DNA of 64,000 nucleotides from Rhodobacter sp. CZR27. Its GTDB lineage: Bacteria > Pseudomonadota > Alphaproteobacteria > Rhodobacterales > Rhodobacteraceae. Under the pieces are notes generated by a model. That model was given only the letters and a program-made list of their open reading frames with translations, did no database searches and was not told the DNA's origin. The DNA lies in the NCBI RefSeq assembly GCF_002407205.1, contig NZ_CP023548.1, forward strand, positions 3,000,501 through 3,064,500. The letters run 5' to 3'. Numbering within the stretch: the first letter of the stretch is position 1; each line of letters begins with the position of its first letter. Made by a program: the position numbers and the translations under genes. Positions 1,974 through 59,430 of this stretch are shown piece by piece.

Positions 1974-2010
1974 GAGGATCAGAAATCCTTCCAGTGGAAG
2001 GATTTCCCGA
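1974..2010 (+). repeat. hairpin insert 1 (GAG...CGA family, 37 bp)
   Basis: It starts GAG, has stem AAATCCTTCC, loop AGT, stem GGAAGGATTT, and ends CCCGA. It is flanked by 5-bp inverted repeats GTTGG and CCAAC. It interrupts the IS256 transposase after the DVVG codons. It shares the bulge GAGGRTCAG and the closing CCCGA with the copy at 58742. Confidence 0.75.
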
Positions 2011-2376
2011 CCAACGCCGACCACGTCGGCGCGCCGCTTCACCTCCTTGTTCAGTCGCTCGATCGGATTCGTGCTGTGCAACTTGGTCCGGTGCTGGCGC
2101 GGGAAGGACATGTAGGCCAGCACGTCGTGCTCGCTGGCATCCATGAGGTCGGCGAGCTTGGGCCAGCGCGGGCGCAACTGCTCAGAGACCTTGCGCCAGG
2201 TCTCGCCGGCATGGGCGCGGTCGGGCTGATCGAAGGCCTGCCGGATCGCGGCGGCGACGACGGTATGCTGGCCGCGCGAGACATGTGCCAGCGCGTTCCT
2301 GATCCAGGGAACGCGGCAGCGCTGCCAGGTCGCCTCGAACACCCGGGCGATGGCGGCCTTGAGGCCGGTATGGGTC

Positions 2377-2419
2377 GAGGCGGGGCACGAAACGGTCCGG
2401 GAGACCGTTTCGCCGCCGA
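2377..2419 (+). repeat. hairpin insert 2 (43 bp)
   Basis: It starts GAG, has arms GAAACGGTC (2389-2397) and GACCGTTTC (2403-2411), and ends CGA. It interrupts the IS256 transposase exactly at the second catalytic Asp codon (after LVIS). Confidence 0.75.
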
Positions 2420-2698
2420 GGGCTGATCACCAGCCTGATCCCGCCGAGGCCGCGGGCGCGCAGGGATCGCAGGAACTCGGTCCAGAAGGGTGAGGGCCAT
2501 CGCCCGAACGCTTCGGACGGGCCGATGCCAAGGCCGATGATCTCCCGGCGCCCCTCGGTATTGCGGCCACGGCGATTATCGCCGCGACCGGCACGATGCG
2601 ACCGCCCAGGCGCACCTTGAGGTAGGTCGCGTCCAGCCAGACATAGGGCCACTCGCCGGTCAGCGGGCGGTTCAGGAACTCGCCCACGCGTTCGTCAT

Positions 2699-2741
2699 TC
2701 GCCGGGAAAACGATCCCCCGGATCGTTTTCTGGCCCGGCTC
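2699..2741 (-). repeat. hairpin insert 3 (43 bp)
   Basis: Read on the minus strand it runs GAG, bulge, AAAACGATCC, GGG, GGATCGTTTT, CGA. It interrupts the IS256 transposase between the codons for KLCKE and DERVGEF. Confidence 0.78.
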
Positions 2742-3056
2742 ATTCCTTGCAAAGCTTGGACACCGTGCTCTTCGAGATTCCGTTCAGCCCCATGGCCTGC
2801 ACCAGTTCGTCCACCCGTCGGGTCGACACGCCGCTGATCCACGCCTCCTGGATGACCGCCACCGGCGCTTGTTCGAAGGTCTTCCGGGCCTCGGGGAAGC
2901 CTGGGAAGTAGCTGCCCTGCCGGAGCTTCGGCACCCGCAGGTTCAGCGTGCCCAGACGGGTATCGAGAGCGCGCTCTCGATACCCGTTGCGCCAGGTCGT
3001 GCGATCACCGCTGCGTTCATGCCGGCCGGCACCGATCAGGCCTTCCACATCCTTCT

Positions 3057-3095
3057 TCGCTACGATCGATCCACTGGATCGATCGCTTTACGCTC
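3057..3095 (-). repeat. hairpin insert 4 (39 bp)
   Basis: Read on the minus strand it runs GAG, CGATCGATCC, AGT, GGATCGATCG, CGA. It interrupts the IS256 transposase near residue 35, between LQLIM and DVEGLIGAG. Confidence 0.78.
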
Positions 3096-3307
3096 GAAGT
3101 CCATGATCAGCTGCAGGACAGCCTCGGCGATGGAGCGCAGGAAGTCGCCCTGATCGTGCTTGGCCAGAAGCTCGGACAGGTCCATGTTCGTCTTGGTCAT
3201 CGGGGTCTCCGTAAGGTCCGTGGTTGAAGTCGCCAAACTCCACCTCGACCATACACCTCGATGGCCACCCGGGATCACACCGCCGCTGGCGACGAAATTA
3301 CACCAGC

Positions 3308-3901
3308 TCCTCGCACGCTAACTCTATCAGCCGTTGCAACGAGTTGAGCGATAGCGAACTTGGAGGTCCGGTCGATTCCGACGAACAAGTAGAGCTTCCC
3401 TTCGCCGGTCTGACCTCGGCAATGTCGATGTGAAAGAACCCGATGGGGTAGCGCTTGAACTTCTGGCGCTTTGGTTTGTCGCCTTCGACATCCGGCAGGC
3501 GCGAGATGCCATGACGCTGCAGGCCCCGATGCAACGCCGACCGTGTCAGGTGCGGGATGGAGGGCTGCAGGGCCTAGAGGCGTTCCTCGCTTCAGACGAT
3601 CCCCCGGATCGTCTGGTTGACGCTCGAACTCCAGCGGGAGAAGCGTGCGGCGCCGGATCGCCACGACCGCCGCTTCCTCGGGCTCGGTCAAGACCGTCGA
3701 GCGCGGTTCCTTCGGCCCGGTCTTCATGTCCTCGACCGTCGCTCGCTTGTGCCACTTCGCCACCGTCTTCGGATTGACGCCCAGTTCCCGGCTCGGCTGC
3801 GCGAGCGAAGCGTGCGACCGCTGTATTGCTGCTCTGACGGCGTGCGTGGTCGTGGCGCTCCCGTGATGAACCTTGTCCCATAGGGCTTCCTTCCATTCCA
3901 T
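3308..3901 (-). pseudogene. IS481-family transposase, N-terminal half
   Basis: The protein begins with an HTH region (SATTTHAVRAAIQRSHASLAQPSRELGVNPKTVAKWHKRATVED) and continues into the start of an rve-type DDE core (IGFFHIDIAEV carrying the first Asp, LYLFVGIDRTSKFAIAQLV). It breaks off where the IS256 end begins. A 39-bp hairpin insert at 3587-3625 follows the TLLPL codons and shifts the frame. The second Asp and Glu are lost, so it is inactive. Confidence 0.75.
3587..3625 (-). repeat. hairpin insert 5 (39 bp)
   Basis: Read on the minus strand it runs GAG, bulge ending CAG, ACGATCC, GGG, GGATCGT, CTG, and ends CGA. It interrupts the IS481 transposase between its HTH and catalytic domains. 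Confidence 0.78.
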
Positions 3902-4632
3902 CGAATGGATCGCACCATCAACCGTTGGAGCAAACACCCTAATCCCCCGAGCGTAATAGTGATCTTCGTTCCCCAGTGAATGCCCCTCTTAGGCTCCAGA
4001 CCCATTGATTTTGGGCGGATCGCGTGATTCAGGCCTCGCAAGGAGACCTGACCGATGAGCAACCTCTACTGGCTGTCCGAGGCGCAAATGGAGCGCCTGA
4101 AGCCGTTCCTTCCCAGGAGCCATGGCAAGCCCCGTGTCGACGACCGGCGTGTGTTGAGCGGCATGATCTTCATCAATCGCAATGGCTTGCGGTGGTGCGA
4201 CGCGCCCAGGGAGTATGGGCCGGCGAAGACCCTCTACAATCGCTGGAAGCGTTGGAGCGAGAACGGAGTCTTCGCCCGGATCATGATGGGCCTGGCGGCC
4301 GAGAGAGCCGGGCACAAGACGATCATGATCGACGCGACCTGCCTGAAGGCGCATCGCACGGCCTCCAGCCTGCCGCTGCCAACGTATGGCCCGCCCCGGT
4401 GCAAGCGCCGATTGGGTGACAGCGTGATCAGTCTGCACAAACGTATCCGGCATGTCGGCGCCAGTGCCGCTGCAAGATGGAGATCCGCGCGTCCCGATCC
4501 TCATAAAGGGGCCGGTCTCGGAGACCATTTTTGACCGGAGGTTTTCGAGACGCCGTTCGACTGTCAGGCCATCTTCCTCTCATCACTCGCAGCTTGTCGC
4601 GCCCGACCGTGTTCAGGACGGGCGCGTGCTCA

Positions 4633-5661
4633 TTATCCCGCCGCCAACGGCACAGGGTCGTAGATCCGTCCGTGGCGCAAGAGCGCCCAGACAGTTCGGG
4701 CCATCTTGGCCGCAAGCGCGACGACGGCGACATTGGGATGAGAACGTGACAGCAGCCCGCGCAACCAGGCACCCACGGCGGTGTTTGTCCTCGCCAGTGT
4801 CGGCATGGCGGAACGCGCGCCCTGGATCAGCATCTTGCGGAGATAGCGACTGCCCCGCTTCGTGATCCCGAGGAGCCTTGGCCTGCCGCCGGTCGTGGCC
4901 TGACGAGGCACGAGACCCAGCCAGGCCGCTAGATCTCGGCCCTTGCCGAAGGTGGCAGCGTTGCCAACCGCGGCCGCCAGCGCGGTCGCATTGAGCACTC
5001 CAATGCCCGGAATGCTCGTCAGCCGTCGTGCCCTGTCATCACTTCGGACCATGGCTACAAACTCGGCGTCGAAGGCGGCGATGCGACGGTCCCAGTTCTT
5101 CCCGACGCGCGCGCATGTCTCCAAGCAGGAACGCCATGCGTGGGCTCAGGCGTCGGCGCCATCATCCGGAAGATCGCGCAGCAAGAGCCGCATCCGCCCG
5201 TGACCCTGCGCCACGACGTGCCCGCGCTCCAGCAGCAGGCTGCGGATCTGGTTGGTCAGGGAGGTTCGCTCCCCGACCAGACGATCGCGCACCCGGTGCA
5301 GCGTCTGAACGTCAAGCTGCTTCTCGCTCTTGAGTTCGACAAAGCGCATGGTCGGACGGGTGGCCGCTTCCGCAATCGCCTCGGCGTCCCGGTCATCGTT
5401 CTTCTGTGCCTTGACGTAGGGGCGAACATATTCCGGCGACATCAACCGGATCTCGTGCCCCAGCGCGGCCAGCGCACGACCCATGTGGTGCGCCCCGCAG
5501 CGCGCTTCCATCGCCATGATGCAAGGTGTCAACCGTGAGGCGAAGGTGATCACCCCGTCACGGCGCATCCGCCGTCTCACGACGACCTTGCCGTTGGCAT
5601 CCAGTCCAACCACGCGGCAGGCTGTTCTTGCCCAGATCGACCCCAGGATCACAATGCTCAT
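4633..5661 (-). pseudogene. IS110-family transposase with frame lesions
   Basis: The N-terminal DEDD domain (RVVGLDANGKVVVRRRMRRDGV, MSPEYVRPYVKAQKNDDRDAEAIAEAA) and the C-terminal Tnp20 domain (SIPGIGVLNATALAAAVG, FGKGRDLAAWLGLVPRQ, GSRYLRKMLIQGA) are both full. Near 5140 a missing C turns the expected GCCCTGAGC into GCCTGAGC and gives a stop. Some 45 bp later an extra G appears. With both repaired the protein would be ~340 aa, the normal length. The indels are in or beside short C and G runs, so sequencing error is possible. Confidence 0.85.
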
Positions 5662-6129
5662 GGCTCACTCCTTCCTTCATTCAACACCGCCATCCTGCAG
5701 AGGGCGGCGGGAGGGGCGGGCCATCCATAAAGGGGGGCGCGCACGTCAGATCGGGCGCACCAAGGGGAGCATGAACACCAAGTTGCACGCCGTCGCCAAT
5801 GCGAAGGGGCGGCCGATCGGGTTCTTCATGTCTGCTGGACAGGTCAGCGACTACACCGGCGCGGCGGCGCTGCCGGGCAGCCTGCCGAAGGCGGACTGGT
5901 TGCTGGCGGACAGTGGCTACGATGCAGACTGGCTGCGAGAAGCGTTGAAAGACAAGGGGATGAAGGTCTGCATCCCGGGGGCGTTGTTGCAGAAAGCCGC
6001 CTTGAGGCGTGACTTCCCCTTTCCCCCCGGGACGTCAGTCGACGCGGACGATCTCGGCGGTGCCGAGGGCGTTGAAGCGGTTCATGAGAGCGACGCGGAT
6101 GTGGATCTCGGCGGTCTGACGGTCGGGGG

Positions 6130-6168
6130 TGAGCCATTGGAACGCCATTGGTCCGAGAGACAGTGGCG
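6130..6168 (+). repeat. hairpin insert 6, degenerate (39 bp)
   Basis: It has the GAG start and CGA end of the family but an imperfect stem (CCATTGGTC facing AGACAGTGG). It interrupts the IS903-group transposase near its C-terminus. It is the weakest member. Confidence 0.4.
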
Positions 6169-6210
6169 AACGCCATGATGCGTTCACCTAAGGCCTTGAG
6201 CCGAGCCGGT

Positions 6211-6239
6211 GAGCGCCACCGGTTCGAGCGAACCGGCGA
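6211..6239 (+). repeat. hairpin insert 7 (29 bp)
   Basis: It starts GAG, has stem CCGGTTCG, loop AG, stem CGAACCGG, and ends CGA. It is the shortest member, and sits after the SRIEAKM codons of the IS903-group transposase. Confidence 0.6.
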
Positions 6240-6668
6240 GGGCATCTTCGCCTCGATCCGGCTGCGGGCGTGGTAGCCCGTCCATCGCTTCCAGAACGCC
6301 CGGCCATAGTGACGGGTGGCGCGCAGGGTCTCGTTTCCGGCCCGGGCGGCGGGGCCATCTTCCTTCCATGGTCGGCCGTTCCTGCGGATCGGTATGACGG
6401 CTGTGGCGCGGCGCTCGACGATGGCCGTGTGGCAGCGTCGCGTGTCATAGGCGCCGTCGCCGGTCACGGTGCCGATCTCCTCATCCTCGGGGATCTGGTC
6501 CGGCAGCTCGGGCAGGACAGGGCTGTCGCCGTCGCGGCTGGGGGTGAACTCGACGGCACGGATGTCGGACGTGGCCGCATCCATGGCCAGATGCACCTTG
6601 CGCCTTTGGCGCCGGCCCTGCGCCCCATGCTTGCGGACCTGCCATTCGCGCCCGGCAGGCTTACGCAT

Positions 6669-6711
6669 TCGGGGCTGGAACGATCCACTGGATCGTTCCC
6701 GATTTCCCCTC
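6669..6711 (-). repeat. hairpin insert 8 (43 bp)
   Basis: Read on the minus strand it runs GAG, bulge, GGAACGATCC, AGT, GGATCGTTCC, and ends CGA. It separates the FLG and GEW codons of the IS903-group transposase. Confidence 0.78.
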
Positions 6712-6938
6712 ATCACTGGCGCCACGGTCCTGCCTTACCCGAGGAACTTGATCCCGGTGCTGTCGACCAGCAGGTTCAGTGGGCCGTCGGCGCGGCGATA
6801 CGGGATGTGGACAGCCAAGGACGCCGGCAGAGGGTGGAATAGTCCGGAACCGGCCAATCCAGCCCGGCCAGGCGCAGGAGGCTGGCCACCATCCCGGCGG
6901 TCTGCCTCAGCGGCAGCCGGAACCAGGGCTCCGCCCGT

Positions 6939-6983
6939 TCAGGGCTGAAAACGGTCCTCAGGACCGTTTTCCGGGCGCCCTTC
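6939..6983 (-). repeat. hairpin insert 9 (45 bp)
   Basis: Read on the minus strand it starts GAA, has arms AAAACGGTCC and GGACCGTTTT around TGA, and ends TGA. The GAG/CGA ends of other copies are thus GAA/TGA here. It interrupts the LSIK segment of the IS903-group transposase. Confidence 0.75.
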
Positions 6984-7637
6984 ACCCTTGATCGAGAGGC
7001 AGAACTGGATCGCCGCATCCGAGAACAGCAGCGGCCGCCCAGGCCTGCCCTCAGGTGGCGCGAGCCAGGCCATCTCCCTGTCCAGCCAGATCAGCAGCGA
7101 CCCGCGCCTCCGGAGCGCCTGGTTGTAGGTGGACCAGTTCGTCGTGCGATGGCGGGGGCGTCCAGGCTTCGTCATGCTTCCCGTCTAACGCCATGGAGTC
7201 GTGACGTGAATCCTTCCGGGCGGAAGTTCTGCAACAATGCCCATCCCGGGCCGGAAATCGCGCAAGACCGATGTGACATACGACAAGAGGCGTTACAAGC
7301 GGCGCAACCGCATCGAGATCATGTTCGGGCGACTCAAGGACTGGCGACGGGTCGCTACCCGATACGACCGCTGCCCGGACACGTTCTTCTCCGCTATCGC
7401 ACTCGCAGCCATCGTCCTGTTCTGGCTCTGATAATCAATGAGTCTGGAGCCTAGGAACGATCCTATAAATCGCTCGCCCATGACCATCCTCCACACTCAC
7501 TCGCGCGAAGGATTCGCCGGCAAGCGGCAAGCCGGAAGCCCGAAGCCGCGACATCAAGGGGGAAGACCACTGCTGAAGGTAAGGCTATCGGTTCGGGGCT
7601 TGCTGCTCACTGCTCAAGGAGGTAGACATCTGTCATC

Positions 7638-7727
7638 GGAGCGATGGCCGAGTGGTCGAAGGCGCACGCCTGGAAAGTGTGTAGGCGGGGAACCGTCTCG
7701 AGGGTTCGAATCCCTCTCGCTCCGCCA
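7638..7727 (+). tRNA. tRNA-Ser (GGA anticodon)
   Basis: A 90-nt class II tRNA with encoded CCA. Acceptor arms are GGAGCGA and TCGCTCC, the anticodon loop is CTGGAAA (anticodon GGA), there is a long variable arm, and the T arm contains GGTTCGAATCC. It marks the boundary between the insertion-sequence graveyard and the accessory block. tRNA-Ser genes are frequent integration sites, but I found no second copy of its 3' end in the window. Confidence 0.93.
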
Positions 7728-8020
7728 TCACACACGATGTGGCAAAAATTTCTAGGGATCAATGACTTAGAGGTGGTGGTGAAAACTCCTCCACACACGT
7801 CTTCCACACACGTTGCCCCCGCACGTTGCCCCCGCACGGTGCCTCCGGTCAGCAGCAGCCTACAACCAAGGCAGCAACTGAATCGGGGAAGTGCTCGTAG
7901 GGAAATGGCGATATGCCTCGCGGCCTCAGAAGGGCAGCGGTAGTCCCTTGCAGAGCGCGCCGGAAACAACCTCCTTCTTCGGATGTGTTGCGGGGTTCTT
8001 GCTAGACCGCGGGACGCCGA
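7728..8020. repeat. leader of the reverse transcriptase gene with CA-rich repeats
   Basis: This 293-bp stretch has no gene. Between 7789 and 7841 it holds two copies of CCACACACGT followed by two copies of TGCCCCCGCACG, and a further CACACAC lies at 7730. It sits directly upstream of a reverse transcriptase of a class whose relatives often use a neighbouring non-coding RNA as template. An RNA here is an inference; no conserved structure is proved. Confidence 0.3.
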
Positions 8021-9889
8021 GTGGTTGATCTCCGTCAAGCACCTGCTACTCTGAGGAAAACAGGTGAGAAATTGCAGTCTCCTAAATTCAAATTTTTGCT
8101 GCCTGAACTGGAAGATGTTTTTTCAAAGAGCGAGCTTAAGGAGGAATGGAGAAAGAGAGTTGGCTATCAGATAAGGAAGCAATTGATATTTGACCCGATC
8201 GAATACAGAGACTTCAAGGAAGGAATAGACTCATACATTGACCAAATAATATATGAGCTTACCCGCGGTGAATATAAGGTCAAGTTGTGCAGGAGATACC
8301 TCGCTGAGAAGTCCCGCGGCCTCTGCAGGCAGATGACTCTAATCCACCCGTTGGATCTCTTGGTGCTGGAACGACTCTCCCGCTCGCTGCATTACGAGCT
8401 TAAATCAAAGTGCCCCAGCAAATCGGCTTTCTTTGAGCCAGACGATGGATCTTTTGTAAAGGGGTTTCATCAGCCGGACTTTCAATACGGCTCTTATGCG
8501 AGTTGGCGACGCTTCCAAAAGGCGGTTTTTGGGTTCTCCGACGAAAACAATTATATCATAGTTACGGATGTAGCCAACTTCTATGATTTTATTAACTTCC
8601 AGCATCTCCGCAACATAATATCCGGCTTAGCGGATGTCAGGGAGTCCATCCTTGACCTATTAATTCATATCCTCAATCGGATGACATGGACGCCAGACTT
8701 CATGCCCCTAAGTCAGATTGGGATGCCGCAAATTGAAACTTCGGCAACACGGGTTCTGGCTAATGCAATGCTATTTGAGGTGGACAAGGTATGCGAGCAT
8801 TTTTCCGCACTTAATTATGCTAGATTCATGGATGACATGGATATTGGGGTCGATGACATTCCAAAGGCGAAGCAGATTATTAGAGACATAGATCTGACAC
8901 TGCAATCAAGGCAGTTAAGACTAAATTCCTCCAAGACCCGTATTCTAAGCGCCAGCGAGGCCGTCGAGCACTTCTGCATCAAGGAGAATCATGCGCTCGC
9001 TCGCCTTGAGCGCTTCTCTCAAAAAGTCAGATGGAAAACCACGTGCCTTAAGATTCTGCTCAACAAGTATGAGAGGTGGTTGCAGCGAGTAGGGTCTGGA
9101 GAGCCCGGACCTAGGTCAGCATTTAGGAGGGCCAATGGCTCGAAAATACACAAATACATATTCAAACTCATTTACGAGTTAGGTGGTCGCGTTCCAGAAG
9201 AGGATCTTCTTTGGTTGGTAAGAAACGATCCCACACTTCGCAGCACAGCTCTGCGCTATCTTTCGCTCTCGCGGAGAGGCAATTCTAATATTGAGCGCAT
9301 TCTTGAAATGATGGCTCGCGGTCTGTTTGTGGACGATGCTGCTATGGTTGATATTTGCCATTACCTACTTCACGCGAGATTCAGAAGAACCCACGCAACA
9401 ATCAGGAGGGTCAGGGATATCGCCGGACTGATGGAGCGTCACAGCGATATCGGGCTTCACTGCGCTTTATTCGTCTCCTCGCGATTTTTATTTATGGCTG
9501 AGATTCTGAGCCTAGTAAGGCGCAACAGAAGAAGAATTAGGTCTGACTTTTGGTTGTCTAGGGCTGTAGCCGGCCTCACGCCAGTATTTCTGAAATCCCC
9601 TCATTCCTTGAACCACTTTATACGCATGATCCGAGATCTGAAGAGCGAAGATGCCGAAAACGTCATGGAATATATGCTGGCGCTGACAAGAACAAGCGCT
9701 CCATCTGCATCACTGAGGGCATACCTTGAGGCCAAGAACGACACCTTCGCGCAAGGAGTTTACTTCCCGAAGGTTCTTCAACTCCTTGCTGCGAGCCGAA
9801 ACCGTGATGCCTCCAAGTTGTTCCCAAAGATACATGCGATCCATACCTGCCTGAGATCGGATCAGTTCTACAAGAGCATGGGCTTCTAA
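8021..9889 (+). CDS. Abi/UG-type reverse transcriptase (putative anti-phage)
   Basis: This is a single 622-residue protein with an RT core in the N-terminal half. Motif A is VTDVANFYDF (~182), motif B region GMPQIETSATR (~233), and the catalytic motif is ARFMDDMDI (~270), an FMDD variant of YxDD. SSKTRIL follows. From ~370 on it is rich in amphipathic helices resembling the alpha-repeat half of AbiA/AbiK/UG reverse transcriptases. No maturase, integrase or retron features are seen. Base composition is far more AT-rich than the neighbours, pointing to recent transfer. The GTG at 8021 is the longest start; a TTG just inside, near 8072, is an alternative. It converges with the resolvase gene and overlaps its end by 4 bp. 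The exact UG group cannot be fixed here. Confidence 0.8.
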   Translation: MVDLRQAPATLRKTGEKLQSPKFKFLLPELEDVFSKSELKEEWRKRVGYQIRKQLIFDPIEYRDFKEGIDSYIDQIIYELTRGEYKVKLCRRYLAEKSRGLCRQMTLIHPLDLLVLERLSRSLHYELKSKCPSKSAFFEPDDGSFVKGFHQPDFQYGSYASWRRFQKAVFGFSDENNYIIVTDVANFYDFINFQHLRNIISGLADVRESILDLLIHILNRMTWTPDFMPLSQIGMPQIETSATRVLANAMLFEVDKVCEHFSALNYARFMDDMDIGVDDIPKAKQIIRDIDLTLQSRQLRLNSSKTRILSASEAVEHFCIKENHALARLERFSQKVRWKTTCLKILLNKYERWLQRVGSGEPGPRSAFRRANGSKIHKYIFKLIYELGGRVPEEDLLWLVRNDPTLRSTALRYLSLSRRGNSNIERILEMMARGLFVDDAAMVDICHYLLHARFRRTHATIRRVRDIAGLMERHSDIGLHCALFVSSRFLFMAEILSLVRRNRRRIRSDFWLSRAVAGLTPVFLKSPHSLNHFIRMIRDLKSEDAENVMEYMLALTRTSAPSASLRAYLEAKNDTFAQGVYFPKVLQLLAASRNRDASKLFPKIHAIHTCLRSDQFYKSMGF

Positions 9890-11528: not shown

Positions 11529-11536
11529 TGCCTTTC

Positions 11537-12361: not shown

Positions 12362-12400
12362 ACTGAAACGGGGCGGGTAGAAGACGGGTGGCTTTCCGTT

Positions 12401-17685: not shown

Positions 17686-17740
17686 AGAATGTCGATTAAG
17701 CGAACCTTCCGAAGTCATCTGTCCAGCCGCAAACCGGCTG

Positions 17741-49667: not shown

Positions 49668-49696
49668 GAAGCGACCACAAGAACGATGAGTAAGTG

Positions 49697-50797: not shown

Positions 50798-52335
50798 GAC
50801 AACATATCCTCAAGCCGATCCAGCCCCTCGGCAATCTCAGCTTCGATGGCTCGCAGCTCGGCGATGATCTCGGCGGGCGAGGAATGCTCCACCGCCTCGT
50901 GCTCCACCTGCTTGTAGCGGTTCAGCGACAGGTCCCAGCTGCCGGTCGCCTTGATCTCCTCGGCATCGACGACGAAGCTCTGCGCCGTGCGTGGGCGCAG
51001 CAGCTCGGTCTCCTCCCGATGCTTCCAGCGCGCGAGGATGTCGGGCAGGTTGTTCTTCGCGTAGTCCTCAGCCGACAGCGGCTGCTCCGGCACCGCGCCG
51101 AGCTTCGCCTCGTCCAGCAGCGGCGTGCGCTTGTCGTCGAGCGAGAAGCCGTCGGCCGTCATGTCGTAGAACCAGACGCCGCTGGTGCCGCCGACGCCGG
51201 TCTTGGTGAAGACCACGATGGCGCAGGAGACGCCGGCGTAGGGGCGGAACACGCCGGAGGGCAGCTTGATGATCGCCTCCAGTTTGTGGTCCTCGACCAG
51301 CCTGCGCCGGATCTCCTTGTGCGCGCCCGACGAGCCGAACAGCACCCCGTCCGGCACGATCACCGCTGCCCGGCCGCCAGTGCGCAGCAGCCGCAGGAAG
51401 AGCGCGACGAACAGCAGCTCGGTCTTCTTGGTCTTGACCAGCTTCAGCAGGTCCTTCGCTGTCGTCTCGTAATCGAGCGAGCCCGCGAACGGCGGGTTGG
51501 CCAGGATCAGGGAGTAGCGGCCCTCATCTCCCGCATGCTCCTCCGCCAAGCTGTCGCGGTAGCTGACGTCCGGGTCCTCGACCCCGTGCAGCGTCATGTT
51601 CATCGCGCCGATCCGCAGCATGGTGCTGTCGAAGTCGAAGCCGTGGAACATGCCGCCGTGGAAGTGCTGCTTGAGCTTCGCGTCGCGGAAGAGGCCGGCG
51701 TGATGCTCGCGCAGGTATTCGCCCGCAGCCACCAGGAAGCCGCAGGTGCCGGCAGCCGGATCGCAGATGATGTCGTCCGGCTGCGGCGCCATCAGGTGCA
51801 CCATCAGGTTGATGATGTGCCGCGGCGTGCGGAACTGGCCGTTCTGCCCGGCGCTGGCGATCTTGCCGAGCATGTACTCGTAGAGGTCGCCCTTGGTGTC
51901 GCGGTCCTCCATCGGGATCTTGTCGAGCAGGTCGACGACCTTGGCGAGAAGGCCTGCATTCGGGATGCCGAGGCGGGCATCCTTCATGTGCTTGCCGTAG
52001 CTCGATCCGACCTCGCCCAGCGTGCGCAGGAAGGGGAAGACGTGCTCCTCCACCACTTCCATCATCACCCGCGGGTCGAAGTTCTTGAACCGCGACCAGC
52101 GCAGATCCTCGTAAGGCTTGCCCTTGGCGTCAGATCCCTCGGGGAAGATCCGCCGCTGCATCGGGGTGCCGAGCGTGCGGGACTTGTTCTCCTCCAGCGT
52201 ATGCAGGTCGTCGAGCCGCTTGATGAAGAGCAGGTAGGTGATCTGCTCGATCACCGACAGCGGGTTGGAGACGCCGCCCGACCAGAAGGCGTTCCAGATT
52301 TGATCGACCTGCGTGCGCAGAGGTCCCGTGAGCAT
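50794..52335 (-). CDS. hsdM: type I restriction enzyme M subunit
   Basis: 513 aa. An N-terminal helical domain (QIWNAFWSGGVSNPLSVIEQITYLLFIKRLDD) is followed by the N6-adenine methylase core: ICDPAAGTCGFLVAAGEYL (~192, SAM binding), LILANPPFAGSLDYE (~280, catalytic NPPF) and AVIVPDGVLFGSSGAHKEIRRRLVE. It methylates adenine to protect the host site and is the first gene of the operon. It is of normal length and intact. Confidence 0.95.
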   Translation of the reverse strand: MLTGPLRTQVDQIWNAFWSGGVSNPLSVIEQITYLLFIKRLDDLHTLEENKSRTLGTPMQRRIFPEGSDAKGKPYEDLRWSRFKNFDPRVMMEVVEEHVFPFLRTLGEVGSSYGKHMKDARLGIPNAGLLAKVVDLLDKIPMEDRDTKGDLYEYMLGKIASAGQNGQFRTPRHIINLMVHLMAPQPDDIICDPAAGTCGFLVAAGEYLREHHAGLFRDAKLKQHFHGGMFHGFDFDSTMLRIGAMNMTLHGVEDPDVSYRDSLAEEHAGDEGRYSLILANPPFAGSLDYETTAKDLLKLVKTKKTELLFVALFLRLLRTGGRAAVIVPDGVLFGSSGAHKEIRRRLVEDHKLEAIIKLPSGVFRPYAGVSCAIVVFTKTGVGGTSGVWFYDMTADGFSLDDKRTPLLDEAKLGAVPEQPLSAEDYAKNNLPDILARWKHREETELLRPRTAQSFVVDAEEIKATGSWDLSLNRYKQVEHEAVEHSSPAEIIAELRAIEAEIAEGLDRLEDMLS

Positions 52336-52439
52336 CCTGATGGTCCCAAGCAGTCCAAGTTTATGCTGTTGTGACCGACGCTACGCGCAACCTCAAGCGT
52401 GATCTTTCGCAAGCCAGAGCCTTGATCCGCGCCACATCG

Positions 52440-53108
52440 TTATTGGCCGGCGGCGCCGACGCGGTGGATTTGCGCTGAGAGGAGCTGCCGTGCTTTAATA
52501 AAGAGCTTTTTGTTTTCCGGCTTGTTGAGAAACTGGCTTCTTCCCGAGGTATGGGGCAGGTAGGCAACTCCCATATCACCCACGAAGTCAATCCTGCCGA
52601 CGTAATCTTCTTGGGCTCCGGTGGCCAGCCCAAATAGCCTCTGAACATGCCCGGCCGCAAAGGCGCCGAGACATACAATCAGCTTGGGCTTGAAAATCTC
52701 GATCTGCCTTACCAAGAACGGTTTACACGCCCGAACTATTGGAGCTGGCGGAACCACGTCTTCCGGTCGCCCGTTGCTGCCTTCCTTTCTGCCGCAGAAA
52801 CACTTTACCACGGAGGTTTGATAAACGAGGACGTCGAATTGATCCCTCCGCAGACCGCACTGTTCGAAGAGCGCGCGAGCTTCTTCCCCAGCTGGGCCGC
52901 TGAAAGGGCGGCCGCTGATGTATTCAGTCAAACCCGGTGCCTGGCCGACAAGCATTATTGACGCTCTATTCGGAGAAGACACAACGGGCCGCGGAGCAAC
53001 TGGCGTATCGGGAAATCTTATATCGGCGGGAAAACGAGACAGATCAGCGCTGCAAGCTGTGCAAGAGCGAATGACCTCTGTTAATTCGAGCGCCTCAGGG
53101 AGTGCCAT
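52440..53108 (-). CDS. uracil-DNA glycosylase family protein (Fe-S type)
   Basis: 222 aa. CTACSADL (two Cys), VGQAPGLTEYISGRPFSGPAGEE (motif A of family 4/5 glycosylases), KCFCGRK with two further Cys, and VCLGAFAAGHVQRLFG. This gives four Cys for an iron-sulfur cluster. Motif B reads YLPHTSGRSQF, where family 4 usually has an HPS/HPA-type loop, so it may have a divergent substrate. It sits 105 bp behind the start of hsdM on the same strand. Whether it serves uracil repair or defence is open. Confidence 0.78.
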   Translation of the reverse strand: MALPEALELTEVIRSCTACSADLSRFPADIRFPDTPVAPRPVVSSPNRASIMLVGQAPGLTEYISGRPFSGPAGEEARALFEQCGLRRDQFDVLVYQTSVVKCFCGRKEGSNGRPEDVVPPAPIVRACKPFLVRQIEIFKPKLIVCLGAFAAGHVQRLFGLATGAQEDYVGRIDFVGDMGVAYLPHTSGRSQFLNKPENKKLFIKARQLLSAQIHRVGAAGQ

Positions 53109-53136
53109 GTCTTCGTTGCCTTGCGTTGCTCGCGCT

Positions 53137-54639
53137 TCAGCTTTGCCTCAACGGCCTGTATTCGCTTGCGGCAAAAAGCGCACGAGTTGCGTCGATGATG
53201 CTGTCGGACCAAGCTACAGTGCGGCACCAACGAGATGGAACGGCGTCTGCTCCGTAAACTGCTCCCGCGAGCTGCCCCGCGATAGCCCCGGTCGTGTCGG
53301 CATCCTCGCCAAGGTTGGCCGCCAGCAGCACCGCCTCAGCGAAGCTGCCGGTGCGGGCGACGCTCCAGAGCGACGCCTCCAGCGAATGCGCGACGTAGCC
53401 GGAGGCGCGGATCGCCTTCCGCTGCTTGCCCCGCCAGCTTCCCGCCATGATCGAGGCGATAGCGCCCGCGTAGGGCTCCAGCCGATCCCGCAGCACCTCG
53501 CTGCGCTTGCGGCCCTCGATGGCGTCTGCCAGCGCCTCGGCGTAGGCCACGCAGCCGTCCACGGCCTCGGGCGCGCCGTGCGTCGTGCGGCTCTGCCGGG
53601 CGGCGACGTCGCGCAGCAGAGCGCGGTCCTGCCAATGCCGCACTGCGACCGGGGCAAGGCGCATCAGGCTGCCGTTGCCGGCCGTCTGCGGATCGGTGGA
53701 ACCGGCGAAGGGGTCGCCCGACTTCTTCCACCGGCCGAGCGCCTGCCGCGTCGTGATGCCGATGTCGAAGCAGCGGCCGGTGCAGGAGTAGGTGCCCTTC
53801 TCGTGCCACTCCACGAAGCGACGCATGAGGTCTTTCTCGTCGAGCTTCGGATCAAGCGCGAGGCTGTCGGCCAGCGCGAGCGCCATCGCCGTGTCGTCGG
53901 TCCACTCGCCCGGCTTCAGCCCGAACGGCCCGCCGCCCACCATGTCGGTCAGGAGCGGGTAGCTGTCGCGCGCCTTGAACTCCAGCGTGGTGCCGATGGC
54001 ATCGCCCACCGCGAGGCCCAGCAGAGCGCCTGTAGCGCGGTCCTTGATGGCCTCGGCGGTGGCGGCAGGCTCGGCCTCAGGAACGGGCTTCTGCGCCATG
54101 ACATAGGCGAGCTGCGCGTCGGTTTCGATGGCGCCGGGGCGGGCCGTCCGCACCGCCTGCACGGCAGCCTTCGGCTCCATGCCCAGCTCGATGAGCAGCC
54201 GGCTCGCGATGGTGCCGGCGCGGCCGAGGCCGCCCTTGCAGTGCACCAGCACGTTGAAGCCTGCGCGGAGCCGCGCCCGCAGCCCTTCGCCGACTTCGGT
54301 CCACTGCCGCTCGAAGGATACGGGCGGCACCGAGTAGTCGCCGATTGGCAAGTGGAACCACGCCATGTGCCGCGCGGCCACCTTCGCCCCCATACCCTCT
54401 GTTTTTAAAGCCGTCAGTTCGTGGTCTTCGATCAGCGTCACCACGGCCGCAGCGTTCCATGCGGCGACGGCATCAAGGTCGAGGTCAAGGTCGCGATCCC
54501 ATGCGCCCGTGGCAGCCTTGGGCTGCTTCTTGCCGGGGCAGAAGGTGATGCCGACACGGCCGGCACCGAGGAACGGTTGAACTTCGGCGATCTGGAGGGG
54601 ATGGGTGAGGCTGGTGCGCAATTGGGGGAGGCTCTTCAT
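53137..54639 (-). CDS. phosphatase/ADP-ribosylglycohydrolase fusion, 500 aa
   Basis: Residues ~1-180 form a dual-specificity (CDKN3-like) phosphatase with VLVHCKGGLGRAGTIASRLL (~131), the HCx5R loop. Residues ~205-495 are an ADP-ribosylglycohydrolase: LLGLAVGDAIGTTLEF, GEWTDDTAMALAL (first metal site), NGSLMRLAPV, and LGEDADTTGAIAGQLAGA (second metal site). Such fusions occur in alphaproteobacterial islands. It would remove ADP-ribose from a target and perhaps a phosphate. It is intact and on the same strand as the restriction genes, but no toxin partner is adjacent. Confidence 0.88.
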   Translation of the reverse strand: MKSLPQLRTSLTHPLQIAEVQPFLGAGRVGITFCPGKKQPKAATGAWDRDLDLDLDAVAAWNAAAVVTLIEDHELTALKTEGMGAKVAARHMAWFHLPIGDYSVPPVSFERQWTEVGEGLRARLRAGFNVLVHCKGGLGRAGTIASRLLIELGMEPKAAVQAVRTARPGAIETDAQLAYVMAQKPVPEAEPAATAEAIKDRATGALLGLAVGDAIGTTLEFKARDSYPLLTDMVGGGPFGLKPGEWTDDTAMALALADSLALDPKLDEKDLMRRFVEWHEKGTYSCTGRCFDIGITTRQALGRWKKSGDPFAGSTDPQTAGNGSLMRLAPVAVRHWQDRALLRDVAARQSRTTHGAPEAVDGCVAYAEALADAIEGRKRSEVLRDRLEPYAGAIASIMAGSWRGKQRKAIRASGYVAHSLEASLWSVARTGSFAEAVLLAANLGEDADTTGAIAGQLAGAVYGADAVPSRWCRTVAWSDSIIDATRALFAASEYRPLRQS

Positions 54640-54848
54640 TGCAGCCCCGCATGGATATGCTGAGGGCCTTGTTCTTTTTAAGACCTCGGAAACTACTCTG
54701 GTGGGCCTCGGATCAGCAAGACAATTCGGACGCTGCGCCGCGTGGTCACAGGTTTATCACATTCATGATCTTTCCCTCCGTCGAGGCTTCTTCGCCATGT
54801 AGAGGCTGCAGATGTCTTCTCCTTCCGATCTGCGGGCGCGCAAGGGCG

Positions 54849-55447
54849 CTATTCGTCGTCGCTCAGGATCGCAAATCGCCTGCCATGCGACGAGAAGTTG
54901 GCGTGCACCTCACCCGGAATGCCAATTTCGACATGATAGCGGCTTTTCGCCACGCGGATGATGGTCTGGTTGTCAACCCGGTGGACGATCAGGCCGGCGT
55001 CGGCCTTGTTGTACCAACGCGCGCTGTCCAAGATGTCGTAGAGCGTCGGCACCTTGACGTTGCCGTCTTGGTCTTTGTGCTGCTTCGCCGGGTGCGTCAC
55101 GATGACGACCGCCACCAGGAACTTCTTCGCAAAGCGCTTGAAGACCTTGATCGCCCGACCGGTGTATTCGGTCAGGCTTTTGACCGGCAGCCGGCGATGA
55201 TCCATCTCGTTCCACGGGTCGACCACCAGAACCTTGGCATTGTGCTGGACTGCGGCAGCCTCCGCGCGGTCGAGGAACCAGTCAAGCGTCGCGTCGTCGA
55301 CTTCGGACGGCACGATCAAGACGTACTGCCGGTCGATCCAGCGATCCGCCCCGATAAGATCCATCTCGCTCTGATAGACCTCGGGCTTGCTGTTGAACCA
55401 CGCCGGCAGGCTGCGCTTGTGATCGCGGGCCGGGGACGACGGCGGCC
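54849..55447 (-). pseudogene. replicative helicase (RecA/DnaB-like) C-terminal fragment
   Basis: From RDHKRSLPAWFNSKPEVYQSEMDLIG onward it matches the C-terminal half of a toprim/RecA-type element helicase: VLVVDPWNEMDHRR (Walker B), VAVVIVTHPAKQHKD, VPTLYDILDSARWYNKADAGLIVHR and GEIGIPGEVHANF-like end. The primase half and Walker A are missing. The frame continues upstream to 55568 but that part looks like a shadow of the neighbouring frame. Confidence 0.65.
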
Positions 55448-55660
55448 TCACCACCAGCCGAGGGCCTTTGTCCAGAGGCCGAGCTTCGCTATTCCTGCCC
55501 ATCCGCAGCGGTAACAACACACGGTCTCGTTCGCGCCTATTGCGCGTTGTTCCTTTGCGCCGGCCCAACGCAGACCGAGAGGCACGGCTTCTTCTGGTTC
55601 ATCGGCTTCCGCCCGTGACTGCACTGGGGCGGACTGTCGTATACTCACCGGGGGGATCAT
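55448..55660 (-). CDS. short ORF with a CCYRCGW motif, 70 aa
   Basis: NETVCCYRCGWAGIAKLGLWT suggests half a zinc finger. It may be a small real gene of the integrative element, or the start of a larger gene deleted together with the helicase N-terminus; the deletion joint lies close to its 3' end. Start uncertain. Confidence 0.3.
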   Translation of the reverse strand: MIPPVSIRQSAPVQSRAEADEPEEAVPLGLRWAGAKEQRAIGANETVCCYRCGWAGIAKLGLWTKALGWW

Positions 55661-55707
55661 GCCCGAGGGTGATGCCCTTCTCGCGGAGCTTCACCCACAC
55701 GCTCATG

Positions 55708-56601
55708 TCAGAAACCGCTCGGCCCCATCGGCACATAGCCGGGCATGTGCGAGAACTTGCCCTTCGGCTTGCCGGGCGGCTCGGGCGCGGGCTCGTCGTT
55801 CCAGCCGTCGGCATTGAGCCAAGTGGCAGCGTGCTTGGTGTAGTGGGGGTCTTGGCCCTTGCGGCGCTTGGCGTAGGCGGTGGCCCCGTCCATGAGCCGC
55901 TGGACGGCCGCGCGGCGTTTAGCGATCCGGAAGGCTTTGAAGGCGGCACCCTTGCCCTCCTTCCTCGGGTAGACCTGCCAGAAGGCCTCGAACTCGGCCG
56001 AGTAGCCCTCGCTCGGCTCGACCGGCTTAGACGCCGCTTGCTCCGAACGAACGCTCGCCTCTACCGCCGCGGCAGCGACGAGAACCGTGCAGTAAGAACT
56101 TTTCTCTTCTCGTTCTTCTTCTCCTTCACTGTCCCGGGAGTTGCCAAGGATACCATCAGGCATCCTTGAAGGATCGGTCACATCAACAACATCAACAGGT
56201 TGGCTGTTCTTGGTTCCCCACCGGGCGGTGTTGCCGGCGGCACTTCTCGCCCGGTACTTCTTACGTCGCGACCAAGCCTCCATCGCCTGCTCCGCGAGAA
56301 CTCGATGGTACAAGCGACCGTCCGAGCACTTCACAAAGCCGCGCAAAGCCATTGCTCGGATCTTCGGCCAGCGCTTGCCGGCACCGGAGAAGGACGCGAG
56401 CACGCGTTCATCGTCAGGAAGGGACGCGTGCGGGTGCTGCTGCCAAGCACGGCACCAAAGCAAGCAGGCGGCCCAACACTCCTCGGGGGAACCAATGGCA
56501 ACAAGTTCCGATGCCAGCAGCCGCTCGACGTCCAGCATGAACGCCGGGAACCCACGCAAATCAACCTCGGCGGGGACGAGGGGCGCCGGAAGTTGCGTCA
56601 C
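55708..56601 (-). CDS. DUF1376/YdaU-like replication protein, ~297 aa
   Basis: The GTG at 56599-56601 overlaps the upstream stop (GTGA), and gives the start MTQLPAPLVPAEVDLRGFPAFMLDVERLLASELV, the family's usual beginning. WAACLLWCRAWQQHPHASLPDDERVLASF and LYHRVLAEQAMEAWSRRKKYRARSAAGNTARWG follow. The C-terminal FEAFWQVYPRKEGKGAAFKAFRIAK and YTKHAATWLNADGWND resemble a phage helicase-loader tail. It probably helps load the element helicase, which is now broken. Confidence 0.75.
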   Translation of the reverse strand: MTQLPAPLVPAEVDLRGFPAFMLDVERLLASELVAIGSPEECWAACLLWCRAWQQHPHASLPDDERVLASFSGAGKRWPKIRAMALRGFVKCSDGRLYHRVLAEQAMEAWSRRKKYRARSAAGNTARWGTKNSQPVDVVDVTDPSRMPDGILGNSRDSEGEEEREEKSSYCTVLVAAAAVEASVRSEQAASKPVEPSEGYSAEFEAFWQVYPRKEGKGAAFKAFRIAKRRAAVQRLMDGATAYAKRRKGQDPHYTKHAATWLNADGWNDEPAPEPPGKPKGKFSHMPGYVPMGPSGF

Positions 56602-56900
56602 TTCGGGATCTCCCCGCGAAGGTGGACCGGCAGCCCGTTCACAAAATCGCACAGAAGGCCGGAAACAGGCCGCACGAGCCGCTTCAGTCCTTCGCACGTA
56701 GTGCAGTAGCCCACGCTGTCCCACGCCTGCGCTGCGGCCGCGTTCTCACGCCGACGCTGCAGCAGCCATTGGATGCCCTGCCGGCAAAGGGAGATGCGAT
56801 AATTGCCGTCGCGACACAGGACGCGGGCGTAGTCGTCAGAGGTTTCACGAGTGCTGTTTGCCCCGATAGGCGCAGGAACAGCGGCGAGGTGCTGGTTCAT
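56598..56900 (-). CDS. hypothetical element protein, 100 aa
   Basis: From the ATG at 56900: MNQHLAAVPAPIGANSTRE, ARVLCRDGNYRISLCRQGIQWLLQRRR and GYCTTCEGLKRLVRP. This pattern (CRDGxYRISLCRxGIQW) is common in small genes next to DUF1376 proteins in alphaproteobacterial elements. Its role is unknown. Its stop overlaps the downstream GTG. Confidence 0.65.
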   Translation of the reverse strand: MNQHLAAVPAPIGANSTRETSDDYARVLCRDGNYRISLCRQGIQWLLQRRRENAAAAQAWDSVGYCTTCEGLKRLVRPVSGLLCDFVNGLPVHLRGEIPK

Positions 56901-57031
56901 TCCTAAATCCAAAAAATGGATATGCAAGCGCCAGCGGCGGCGCCCTCGGGCGTCGCTGGCGGCATGTCCTATTGTGGAGGGAGACGTCGGTGCTTTGGCG
57001 CGTGAAAGATCGGCGCCCGCTGAACTGGATA

Positions 57032-57217
57032 CTATGCGGCTCCGCGCATCGCCTCGCGGGAGGCGAGCCACGCGATCACCTCGTCCTCGATCCAGCCGAC
57101 GGCGCGCTTGCCAAGCCGAACCGGTTTCGGGAACTGCCCCGAAGCCGACATGGCATAGATCGACGAGCGCGAGAGGCCCGTCGACGCGAGAACTTTAGGG
57201 AGACGCAAAACCTTCAT
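57032..57217 (-). CDS. alpA: AlpA-family excision/regulatory protein, 61 aa
   Basis: MKVLRLPKVLASTGLSRSSIYAMSASGQFPKPVRLGKRAVGWIEDEVIAWLASR is a classic AlpA/MerR-type winged HTH. The inner ATG at 57217 is favoured by GAGGA upstream. AlpA proteins control or assist excision of integrative elements; it sits between the integrase and replication genes as usual. Confidence 0.85.
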   Translation of the reverse strand: MKVLRLPKVLASTGLSRSSIYAMSASGQFPKPVRLGKRAVGWIEDEVIAWLASREAMRGAA

Positions 57218-57659
57218 TCCATTCCTCATGCTTGTCCGCGACCGCGCAGGTTGCGGCGGAATTCAACGTGAGCGAGGAAACGGCTTGGCGAGCTTAAACG
57301 TCCACACTCCGCCTCTAACGGCGTTGGCGTGCCGGTAGAGGTCCTTCGATCATGCCGTCCAAGCGATCTTTCCTCGGCCGAGAAGATCCGTAGCCGTCCT
57401 CATTTAGTTTGAGAAGGCCATCAGGTAGCACGGGAATGAGACGCTGCGGCCGGCGATATCATGGTCATGATAGGGGTTAACCACAGGCCAGTGCCACATT
57501 ATCATCGTTGTGATAATTCGAGGCAAAAGTCACGGGCAAGCGGACCGACAGAAGCTCGACGGCGCTGTCGACCGGTTTCGACCCATTCTTGCAGAAGAAG
57601 GCGCACTCGCCTCTCACGGCGCCAAGGCAAGCGAGAGGCGAACGCGCTGAGATACCAAT
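57218..57659. promoter_or_regulatory. intergenic region between integrase and alpA with inverted repeats
   Basis: No gene is seen here. ATTATCA and TGATAAT face each other across TCGTTG (~57498-57517), a possible operator. TCGCCTCTC and GAGAGGCGA (~57608-57643) form a longer hairpin downstream of the integrase stop that could end its transcript, but no T run follows. Confidence 0.4.
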
Positions 57660-58464
57660 CTAGATGTCGCCGCCCGGCCGCTCGGTCACATAGTCCGCCC
57701 ACTGCTGCAGGACGAGGCGGCGCTCCTCCAGAAGGTCCGAGCGCTGGTAGGCGGCATCGAGATACTTCGGCTGGTGGGCTTTGATGTAGTCCGACACCCG
57801 CTTGTCCACCTTCCCCTCTGCGCACCACGACCCGAGTGTCGCGCGAAAGCCGTGGGTCGTGATGTCGTCGAAGCGCTTAAGCGCAATGAGCATCGCGTTC
57901 TCCGACATGGGCTTCCCTCTGCCGCTGTCGAAGACGTAACCGCTTTCGGAGCGACCGAGATTGCTTAGGAACTGCAGCTTCTCCAGCGCCTGCCGCGGCA
58001 ACGGCTGACGGCGCATCTTGCGTTTCTTCATATTGCCAAACGGCGTCACCCAGACCGCTTTGTCGAAGTCGATCTGCTCCCACTTCATCATGCGGATCTC
58101 TTTCGTCCGCTTCGCCAGCAGTACGGCGATGGCAATGCCGGCATGGGTGTGCGGCCCCATGCGCGGACGAGTGTGCAACCACGCCCACAACTCGTGGATG
58201 CGCTCGTGCGGAAGGGATGTGAAGTGCTTGACGTGGTGCTGGTGCAGAGGCATCGAACGCGGGGGCGGCGTGGGATTATCCTCGCGAAGCTCCAGGTCGA
58301 TGGCGTAGTCGAAGACCCGCTCCACGTTGCCGCGAACCTTCACGCCGCTCGGATGATGCTTCACCCAGAGGTCGGCCAAAGCGTCGGTGATTTCGCGCCG
58401 CTTCATCTCATTGATCGGACGGCGGCCGATGCGCGGGAAGACATGGTCCTCAAGCTGCTTGGCC
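57660..58464 (-). pseudogene. tyrosine integrase, C-terminal part, cut by IS407
   Basis: The retained part (FPRIGRRPINEMKRREITDAL to VTERPGGDI) holds the SAM-like linker and the catalytic domain: LLAKRTKEIRMMKWEQIDF (first Arg region), ITTHGFRATLGSWCAEG (H-x-x-R) and YLDAAYQRSDLLEERR (Tyr nucleophile). The N-terminal domain is missing: the IS407-group element starts at 58465, and beyond it I find no convincing continuation. Confidence 0.8.
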
Positions 58465-58493
58465 TGCCCCCATTGAGTGGTCCGGTTTCAATC

Positions 58494-59430
58494 TTAGTGC
58501 ATGACAGGTCTTGGCGCCACGCTTGGGGTGGCCGGCGTAGCGGGTGCGGGTGGCGAAGCCGGCCACTGCACCGCCCGTGGTGCCGGAGGACGGTAGCCGA
58601 GCGATGAGTGCGGGCGCCTTGTGTTGTAATGTTGGCGCCAGGACTCGATCACGATCCGGGCCTCGGCCAGGCTGTAGAAGATCTCGCCGTTCAACAGCTC
58701 GTCTCGGAGCTTGGAATTGAAGCTCTCGCAATAGCCCTGCCTCGGGAAAACGGTCCCCCGGACCGTTTTCTGACCCTCGGCAGTCCCAAGGGCTGCCGGG
58801 CTCGATGAAAGCGGTGCGGGCGCCGACCGCGGCGATCCAGGTCCGCACCGCGGTCGCGATGAACTCGGGGCCATTGTCGGAACGTATGTGGCCGGGCACG
58901 CCGCGGAGGATGAACAACTCGGAGAGCACGTCGATGACGTCGGTCGAGTTGAGCTTGCGGGCGATCCGGATGGACAGGCATTCGCGGGTGAACTCGTCGA
59001 GGACATTGAGCATGCGGAACTTTCTCCCGTCGTGGGTTCGGCTTTCGACGAAGTCGTAGGACCAGACGTGGTTGGGGCGTTCGGGCCGCAGCCGGACACA
59101 GGACCCGTCATTGAGCCACAGGCGCCGCTTCTTCGGCTGCTTTTGCGGGACCTTCAGCCCCTCGCGCCGCCAGATCCGCTCGACCCGCTTCACGTTCACC
59201 ACCCAGCCCGCCTCGCGGAGCAGCGCGGTGATCCGGCGATAGCCGTAGCGGCCGTACTGGCTGGCCAGCGCGACGATGTCGGCCGTCAGCGCCTCTTCGT
59301 CGGGCCGGCCCTGTGGCACCTTGCGCTGCGTCGAGCGATGCTGCCCCAGCACGCGGCAGGCGACCCGTTCCGACACGCCGAGCTTCTGGCGGACGTGGTC
59401 GATGCAGGCTCGGCGGCGGGCGGGGCTCAG
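58494..59430 (-). pseudogene. IS407-group OrfB transposase, broken by a hairpin
   Basis: RPDEEALTADIVALASQYGRYGYRRI, PNHVWSYDFVESRTHDGRKFRMLNV (first Asp) and PGHIRSDNGPEFIATAVRTWI (second Asp) are in one frame. The last part, NGYCESFNSKLRDELLNGEIF (catalytic Glu) to RRPHSSLGYRPPAP, is in another. The 47-bp insertion between them (hairpin plus 5-bp inverted ends) falls just before the Glu codon and replaces about four bases. Confidence 0.85.
58742..58778 (-). repeat. hairpin insert 10 (37 bp)
   Basis: Read on the minus strand it runs GAG, bulge GGTCAG, AAAACGGTCC, GGG, GGACCGTTTT, CCCGA, flanked by CTGCC and GGCAG. It has the same length, bulge and end as the copy at 1974-2010, though the stem sequence differs. 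Confidence 0.8.

Follow-up and report, generated by a model that had tools for sequence, protein, structure and literature searches.

Hairpin inserts in four transposase families

The subject of this report is a family of short hairpins that interrupt transposase genes of insertion sequences (IS) in a stretch of 64,000 nucleotides of the Rhodobacter sp. CZR27 genome (the window, C1:3000501-3064500 of a genome of 4.44 Mb in 4 contigs). A preliminary description of the window had listed ten such hairpins in four unrelated transposase families, and all ten were present where it placed them. The IS256 of the window was aligned with intact plasmid copies from Leisingera, Thioclava and two Paracoccus, the IS3 with copies from Roseivivax and P. 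ferrooxidans, the IS481 with copies from Cereibacter and P. marcusii, and the IS5 with copies from P. pantotrophus, Celeribacter and Alloyangia. The alignments showed that these intact relatives are uninterrupted at the hairpin sites, which established as inserts the hairpins starting at 1974, 2377, 2699 and 3057 (IS256), 3587 (IS481), 6130, 6211, 6669 and 6939 (IS5) and 58742 (IS3), and confirmed the four families as hosts.

Two types of hairpin were distinguished. The IS256 gene carries four type I inserts, namely site A (1969..2015, plus strand, IS256 position 1044, flanks GTTGG/CCAAC, net +43), site B (2375..2421, plus strand, position 681, flanks TC/GG, net +43), site D (2697..2743, minus strand, position 413, flanks AT/AT, net +43) and site C (3052..3099, minus strand, position 100, flanks CTTC/GAAG, net +44), together with a mini insert of 20 nt, GT-GAGGGCCATCGCCCGA-AC, at 2490..2509 (plus strand, position about 604, net +15), which the preliminary description had missed. 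A type I insert lies in the IS481 gene at 3582..3629 (minus strand, defined in comparison to intact relatives) and another in the IS3 gene at 58737..58783 (minus strand, flanks CTGCC/GGCAG). The IS5 gene carries two type II inserts on the plus strand, at 6129..6171 (flanks GT/AC) and 6201..6241 (flanks CC/GG), and two type I inserts on the minus strand, at 6667..6713 and, of the GCCCGG subtype, at 6938..6984. The latter two had been taken for single inserts and are indeed inserted, but each is composite: the former apparently sits within another palindromic insert (84 bp net for the two) and the latter adjoins a GGGCGGAGCCC hairpin (58 bp net for the two). Within 6650-6740 the outer palindromic insert reads GGCAGG...CCTGCC. 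The four listed IS256 inserts add a net 43-44 bp each and the type II pair in IS5 36-37 bp each, and hairpins of the family are about 40 to 50 bases long.

Chance was rejected as the source of the hairpins, as the 64-kb window contains 11 perfect stems of at least 10 bp with a loop of 0-7, in comparison to 0-3 in each of ten first-order Markov shuffles. Eight of these 11 are listed sites and the remaining three lie at 2956, 34478 and 62621. The one at 2956-2987, a perfect 16-bp palindrome, was rejected as an insert and had rightly been left unlisted, being native IS256 coding sequence that intact copies of other species also carry.

Two covariance models, R1 and R2, were trained on the window inserts, R2 additionally on two plasmid loci, and the scores of window copies are therefore not independent. 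For the relatives, 89 loci were taken from among the matches listed in a search of the taxonomic family (Rhodobacterales). The copies have the form N2-5, GAG-stem-bulge-stem-loop-stem'-CGA, complementary N2-5. The common type I form, a consensus by eye, is GTGAGGAGGATCAGAAAACGRTCC-RGT-GGAYCGTTTTCCCGACGAAC, and it folds into a long inner stem of 10 bp with a loop of 3 nt, a bulge on the 5' side and outer helices. Several copies have an unpaired GA on each side (of 61 elements, 50 and 48 lack pairing between alignment columns 3-4 and 46-47), which may form a tandem mismatch near the hairpin base. Type II, to which sites 6130 and 6211 belong, lacks the long perfect stem but keeps the GAG...CGA ends, with conserved sequence near GCCAYTGGTYCGA between them; the high model scores of these two sites come from a model partly built on them, and type II recurs with 17 matches among the 89 loci.

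The proposal that the inserts form one structural family with variable, covarying stems was borne out. The covariation score for 18 pairs in 61 elements was 0.409. Sliding the partners gave 0.034-0.098, and shuffles averaged 0.124. The pair cells of the 61 elements were paired in 83.8% of cases overall and in 98.2% for the long stem, although the alignment was fitted to the model and the structure is thus favoured. The outermost pair was paired in 57 of the 61 elements with five pair types and the second outermost in 53, and both covary. The alignment comprised 51 of the 89 loci along with the window, and those left out were mostly repeats and GCCCGG-type intergenic copies.

Recurrence and exact replacement in IS256

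Inserts were carried by 19 of 49 IS256 copies besides the reference, a count which includes the fast 388-nt copy L218 and other partial copies but not L276 (327 nt), and they fall at about ten positions: 100, 304-311, 413, 467, 606, 681, 724, 919, 947 and 1044. Near 413, 304-311 and 1044 different hairpins occur in different copies, and at 724 four copies carry related yet clearly different hairpins. The site D insert recurs at 413 in P. yeei, P. aminovorans, P. mutanolyticus and locus L257, and with more differences in L278; between the window and L257 it differs in 1 of 51 nt while the genes are 13.4% apart, and between the window and L278 it shows 5 mismatches and a gap with genes 25.2% apart. 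The site A insert is also found in the Cereibacter ovatus IS256 with none of 51 aligned nt different, and the site B insert in the C. ovatus and L275 copies. At 681, 2 of 51 nt differ in each pair of three copies whose genes are 12.6-14.3% apart. The site C insert recurs in L257 with 4 of 52 aligned nt different. At 919, 2 of 47 nt differ between L257 and either P. yeei or P. aminovorans, with genes 11.1 and 13.0% apart, and at 947 the difference is 4 mismatches and a gap in 71 nt between copies 14.7% apart, two of the changes being compensatory in the stem. The P. yeei (L011) and P. aminovorans (L222) copies share the inserts at 413, 919 and 1044 without any internal difference and with one just outside 1044, while their genes are 12.5% apart and 12 of 93 bases differ within 15 nt of the shared inserts.

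Element and target position are therefore coupled in IS256, in that the same hairpin stands at the same position in diverged copies with no co-travelling flanking markers. One and the same element at one site in independent alleles, as looked for in homing of the GC-cluster kind, was found here, and the coupling resembles homing.

The exact footprint of an insertion was provided by two IS256 copies, L260 and L257, which are 96.7% identical and have disjoint insert sets. L257 carries inserts at 100, 413, 467 and 919, while its sister L260 lacks all four and has native-like bases there. From L260 to L257, CATA is replaced by 47 nt, CGCC by 43, TATG by 43 and GACC by 48, and the nearest other difference is at least 9 nt from an insert. 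No direct-repeat ends (target-site duplication) were found at these four sites of the one pair, as 4 bp are replaced and the ends are inverted and complementary. Likewise, the 5-bp flanking repeats of the preliminary description are present, but they are inverted and part of the incoming insert, and about 4 bp of the target are lost in exchange. In 50 unique IS contexts, the bases before the insert were R in 45, G in 34 and A in 35, and the base after it was G in 40, which gives a target consensus of RGA|NNNN|G.

To separate descent from repeated gain, we counted rare states, defined as those under 10% in other copies, that are shared by the bearers of one insert. For sites 413, 919 and 100 no rare state was common to all bearers, either near the insert or in 1113-1115 far positions. 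The shared rare states at far positions numbered 0 of 698 for 681, 1 of 1115 for 724, 2 of 698 for 947 and 3 of 613 for 304, and for the two elements at 1044 they numbered 4 of 697 and 3 of 1084. The L257/L260 pair requires at least four recent gains in IS256 and, along with the shared-state test, argues for repeated, precise and element-specific gains. Common descent of the filled IS256 copies was dropped on these two grounds, and it may hold for some bearers.

Occurrence in the genome and in relatives

At E <=1e-4, R1 gave 42 matches and R2 gave 28 in the genome of the window, and 67 of these 70 were placed in IS genes (IS256, IS3, IS481, IS5, IS66 and IS21 istB), one placement (C2:846981) resting on a 28-nt IS5 match and the copies at C1:1757627 and 1758224 being counted with their equals, sequence not fetched. 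The other three are a match beside IS66 at C1:792637, which was left unplaced, and a tandem pair at the 3' end of a gene for a transglycosylase. The majority of the 70 matches go back to the multiplication of a small number of filled IS. Two type II hairpins lie in one open frame of an IS3-family gene (Pfam rve_3; L086:8387-9370), and the same pair of matches occurs at three places in the genome. The tandem hairpins of the same architecture after the lytic transglycosylase (SLT) gene lie at L089:3620-3800 (C1:225121-225235), with three such matches at the equivalent position in G149, a genome of the same genus.

The search of relatives with a covariance model, which the preliminary description had proposed, found R1 matches at E 1e-4 in at least 80 of the 149 genomes of the taxonomic family, own genome included. 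Among the hairpin-rich genomes, G111 had at least 30 matches, and G007 and G083 had at least 10. In a sample of the class, R1 matched 4 of 190 genomes at E 1e-5, own genome included; the matches outside the taxonomic family were in G618, G603 and G661 (L285-L288). The 89 loci in relatives hold 116 sites: IS genes account for 62, intergenic sequence for 42 and a phage tape-measure gene for 1, and 11 are unclear; in 99 unique contexts the numbers are 50, 38, 1 and 10, respectively. Host classes were assigned by tblastn with five IS references and by Pfam on chosen fragments of open reading frames (ORFs), and "intergenic" is a reading of the ORF map. The preliminary description had confined the hairpins to transposase genes and excluded other gene types, which is close to the case in the own genome and correct for its listed window sites, but not for the family, given the intergenic copies and the phage gene in relatives.

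The GCCCGG-bulge subtype was intergenic in 20 of 20 unique contexts in relatives, and the window insert at 6939 carries this motif inside IS5. With one mismatch allowed, the D pattern was found in 4 of 394 genomes, and with three allowed, the A pattern was found in 1 of 394, own genome included in both counts. Elsewhere, the D unit was found in an IS110 gene (L139) and at two further loci with one pattern mismatch, and a search of viral contigs for the exact D junction found none. A C. sphaeroides plasmid matches the insert at 6129..6171 over 39 nt (97.4%), within apparent IS481 sequence. The phage copy (L134:1494-1540) is a type I hairpin in frame within an open tape-measure gene of 767 codons. 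Intergenic copies just 3' of genes were seen at L105, L114, L160, L164, L167, L174 and L178, and several 3' intergenic copies adjoin terminator-like GC-rich hairpins. The IS256 copy of another same-genus genome, G151, is identical to that of C. ovatus (L221) over 789 compared positions, which points to Cereibacter as the probable genus.

Origin of the inserts and comparison with known elements

We consider it about an even chance (a probability near 0.5) that the inserts are non-autonomous mobile hairpins with element-specific target choice, moved by an enzyme acting in trans. In such a mechanism, an enzyme acting in trans from another locus would recognise the hairpin as folded single-stranded DNA, and the target would be set by the sequence around the site according to the consensus RGA|NNNN|G. 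The insertion itself is precise, and it replaces 4 bp with the hairpin where a near-identical empty copy allows comparison. Hits in transposase genes would survive and be amplified because these genes are dispensable and multicopy, which may account for their dominance among the hosts. Of the three ideas in the preliminary description, a mobile mini-element fits best, while a repair footprint leaves unexplained the return of one sequence to one position. A stronger version is conceivable but doubtful, namely a programmed Rhodobacterales insertion system that would write position-matched hairpins into transposase genes, either as a homing element without a gene or as a guide-directed defence that silences IS. 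To our knowledge, such a system, with precise replacement of 4 bp and without co-conversion, would resemble no known mobile palindrome. Short mobile palindromes are common in bacteria and their movement is largely obscure; here the mechanism becomes testable, since a filled and an empty copy are 96.7% identical, the replacement footprint is exact, positions are specific to the element and gains were repeated. If this is homing, it would be a bacterial homing element without its own gene, and if the targeting is active, it would be a novel means of editing and silencing IS.

Several observations weigh against mobile hairpins moved in trans. No moving enzyme turned up, though no search for one was made. 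The exact 4-bp rule was seen only in the near-identical pair, and 5-6 bp are apparently replaced at 724, 311 and 6130. L226 and L229, both with an insert at 413, share rare states at 10 of 1113 far positions, and the window and C. ovatus share the 4 of 697 at 1044, which makes shared ancestry probable for part of the bearers. When 26 copies were placed in a tree, all D-bearers but L218 grouped in one clade (support 0.976), a sign of descent in some cases; several D-bearers had been found by searching for D, and the search alone would not cluster them. The P. yeei and P. aminovorans IS256 genes differ by 19/12/116 at codon positions 1/2/3, an intact-like pattern of coding selection which fits recent gain and also fits long-retained inserts if these are very strongly constrained. 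A few inserts, such as that at C2:577274 in an IS481 gene, leave the frame open.

The main rival is homing by very short-tract gene conversion, which would spread the hairpin to the equivalent position of empty homologues within one cell, in the manner described for the GC clusters of yeast var1, and need an enzyme for the first insertion only. It would explain the coupling of element and site, cells often hold filled and empty homologues of IS genes, and the flanks within 30 nt of 681 differ at 10 of 180 positions (three non-independent pairs) in comparison to 12.6-14.3% for the genes. On the other hand, in ten site groups the shared rare states lie within 5 nt of the site and are mostly replaced bases, with one exception at +21 of 1044, so the tracts would need to be very short, and P. 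yeei and P. aminovorans differ at the 12 of 93 bases next to their shared inserts. A candidate co-conversion marker 9 nt from the site-100 insert, present in the window and L257 but not in L260, failed the rarity criterion. Gene conversion was thus dropped as the first choice for lack of flanking markers in the shared-state test and kept as a tentative alternative.

A host defence that writes hairpins into conserved transposase positions as a disabling act, the third idea of the preliminary description, agrees with the 67 of 70 own-genome matches in IS genes and with several sites in apparent conserved transposase motifs, which we take to be TDNG, PWxNG and SDAH. It also agrees with the IS66 region at L088:4400-5800 (C1:791.4-792.8k), where the two models give five matches at E 1e-4, and a further two that are weak, within about 1.4 kb. 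We regard it as unlikely, given the 42 of 116 intergenic sites and the phage-gene site in relatives; selection against hits in useful genes may account for much of the bias, and no linked machinery is known to us, although its genes were not searched for.

The effect on the host genes bears on a further alternative, in which old inserts would be neutralised by removal from the RNA, as introns are, or by bypassing in translation, leaving the transposase functional. The three identical inserts of P. yeei and P. aminovorans in genes with an intact-like codon pattern, and the clustering of most D-bearers in one tree, would agree with it. The inserts, however, usually shift or stop the reading frame, most host genes examined are damaged, and both orientations relative to the gene occur. 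Further frameshifts were found in 11 of 19 insert-bearing in comparison to 5 of 30 insert-free IS256 copies (Fisher p 0.005, near-identical copies unmerged). The filled IS5 is present on C2 in five full copies, and four of them (c1, c2, c3 and c5) differ in their flanks, so this IS5 moved after gaining its inserts, while c4 has flanks like the window copy. The differences between the window IS5 and c1 number 3/6/8 at codon positions 1/2/3, as expected without selection, and the simplest reading is a dead transposase gene moved in trans. The absence of any change in about 130 nt of shared insert (computed for 127) is below what is expected even from codon positions 1+2 (p 0.006), hairpins at different sites vary freely, and L257/L260 require recent gains. 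Such evidence favours inactivating insertions rather than introns and makes neutralised inserts rather improbable. Ordinary palindromes like the repetitive extragenic palindromes (REPs), landing at random and kept in dispensable DNA only, would account for the many intergenic copies 3' of genes in relatives but leave unexplained why independent copies hold one hairpin at one base and why some ten IS256 positions recur, and they are the least probable of all. Integron attC sites, the action of IS200/IS605 or RAYT, and retron or DGR donors were also considered and provisionally set aside.

Among known systems, the GC clusters of yeast mitochondria appear by analogy to be the closest functional relative. 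These are described as short GC-rich hairpins with stems more constrained than loops, sporadic, and both intergenic and intragenic, and optional clusters of var1 show unidirectional inheritance tied to gene conversion (PMC4478555, PMC8811140). The present family is likewise short, GC-rich, more conserved in its stems than in its loops, sporadic, and intergenic as well as intragenic, but it is bacterial, hits many transposase families, shows no flanking conversion marker and replaces 4 bp where the yeast clusters, as described, have AG or TAG repeats.

The nearest bacterial relative by habitat is the CGTC group of REPs, which fails on structure. REPs of the GTAG and CGTC superfamilies are short palindromes with variable stems and no gene of their own, some of them intragenic, and their association with transposase genes is reported as rare and fortuitous (PMC3733652). 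The CGTC REPs are mostly from alphaproteobacteria and mostly 3' of genes, and have a stem of 8-9 bp starting with A/T pairs, a loop of 4-5 nt and an unpaired tail (PMC3733652). In comparison to that description, our family has a 10-bp inner stem, outer helices and a 3-nt loop, and pairing is seen at its two outermost positions (57 and 53 of 61 elements) where an unpaired CGTC tag and CCA-like tail would stand; CGTC is found on the complementary strand of many copies, inside the hairpin. No GTAG tag was seen at the listed ends of copies from the own genome and relatives, and genes for RAYT, the linked tyrosine transposase, were not searched for.

Rickettsia palindromic elements, which are inserted within reading frames of other gene types (cited in PMC3733652), resemble the hairpins in being palindromic and intragenic and, by description, differ in host genes. 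The byps of Magnusiomyces mitochondria, translational bypass elements, are short hairpins in coding sequence described as GC clusters (PMC8811140); ribosome skipping is not indicated for our family, and the IS5 changes after insertion are neutral. Among the open-licence papers in PMC (subscription papers not covered), we found no account of the hairpin family and none of such palindromes in Rhodobacter, Roseobacter or Paracoccus. Membership in a known Rfam family was rejected, since only tRNA reached the gathering threshold in the window and the best weak match within 1900-7000 had an E value of 0.62. A tRNA gene at 7638-7724 lies just to the right of the IS cluster and may mark an island boundary.

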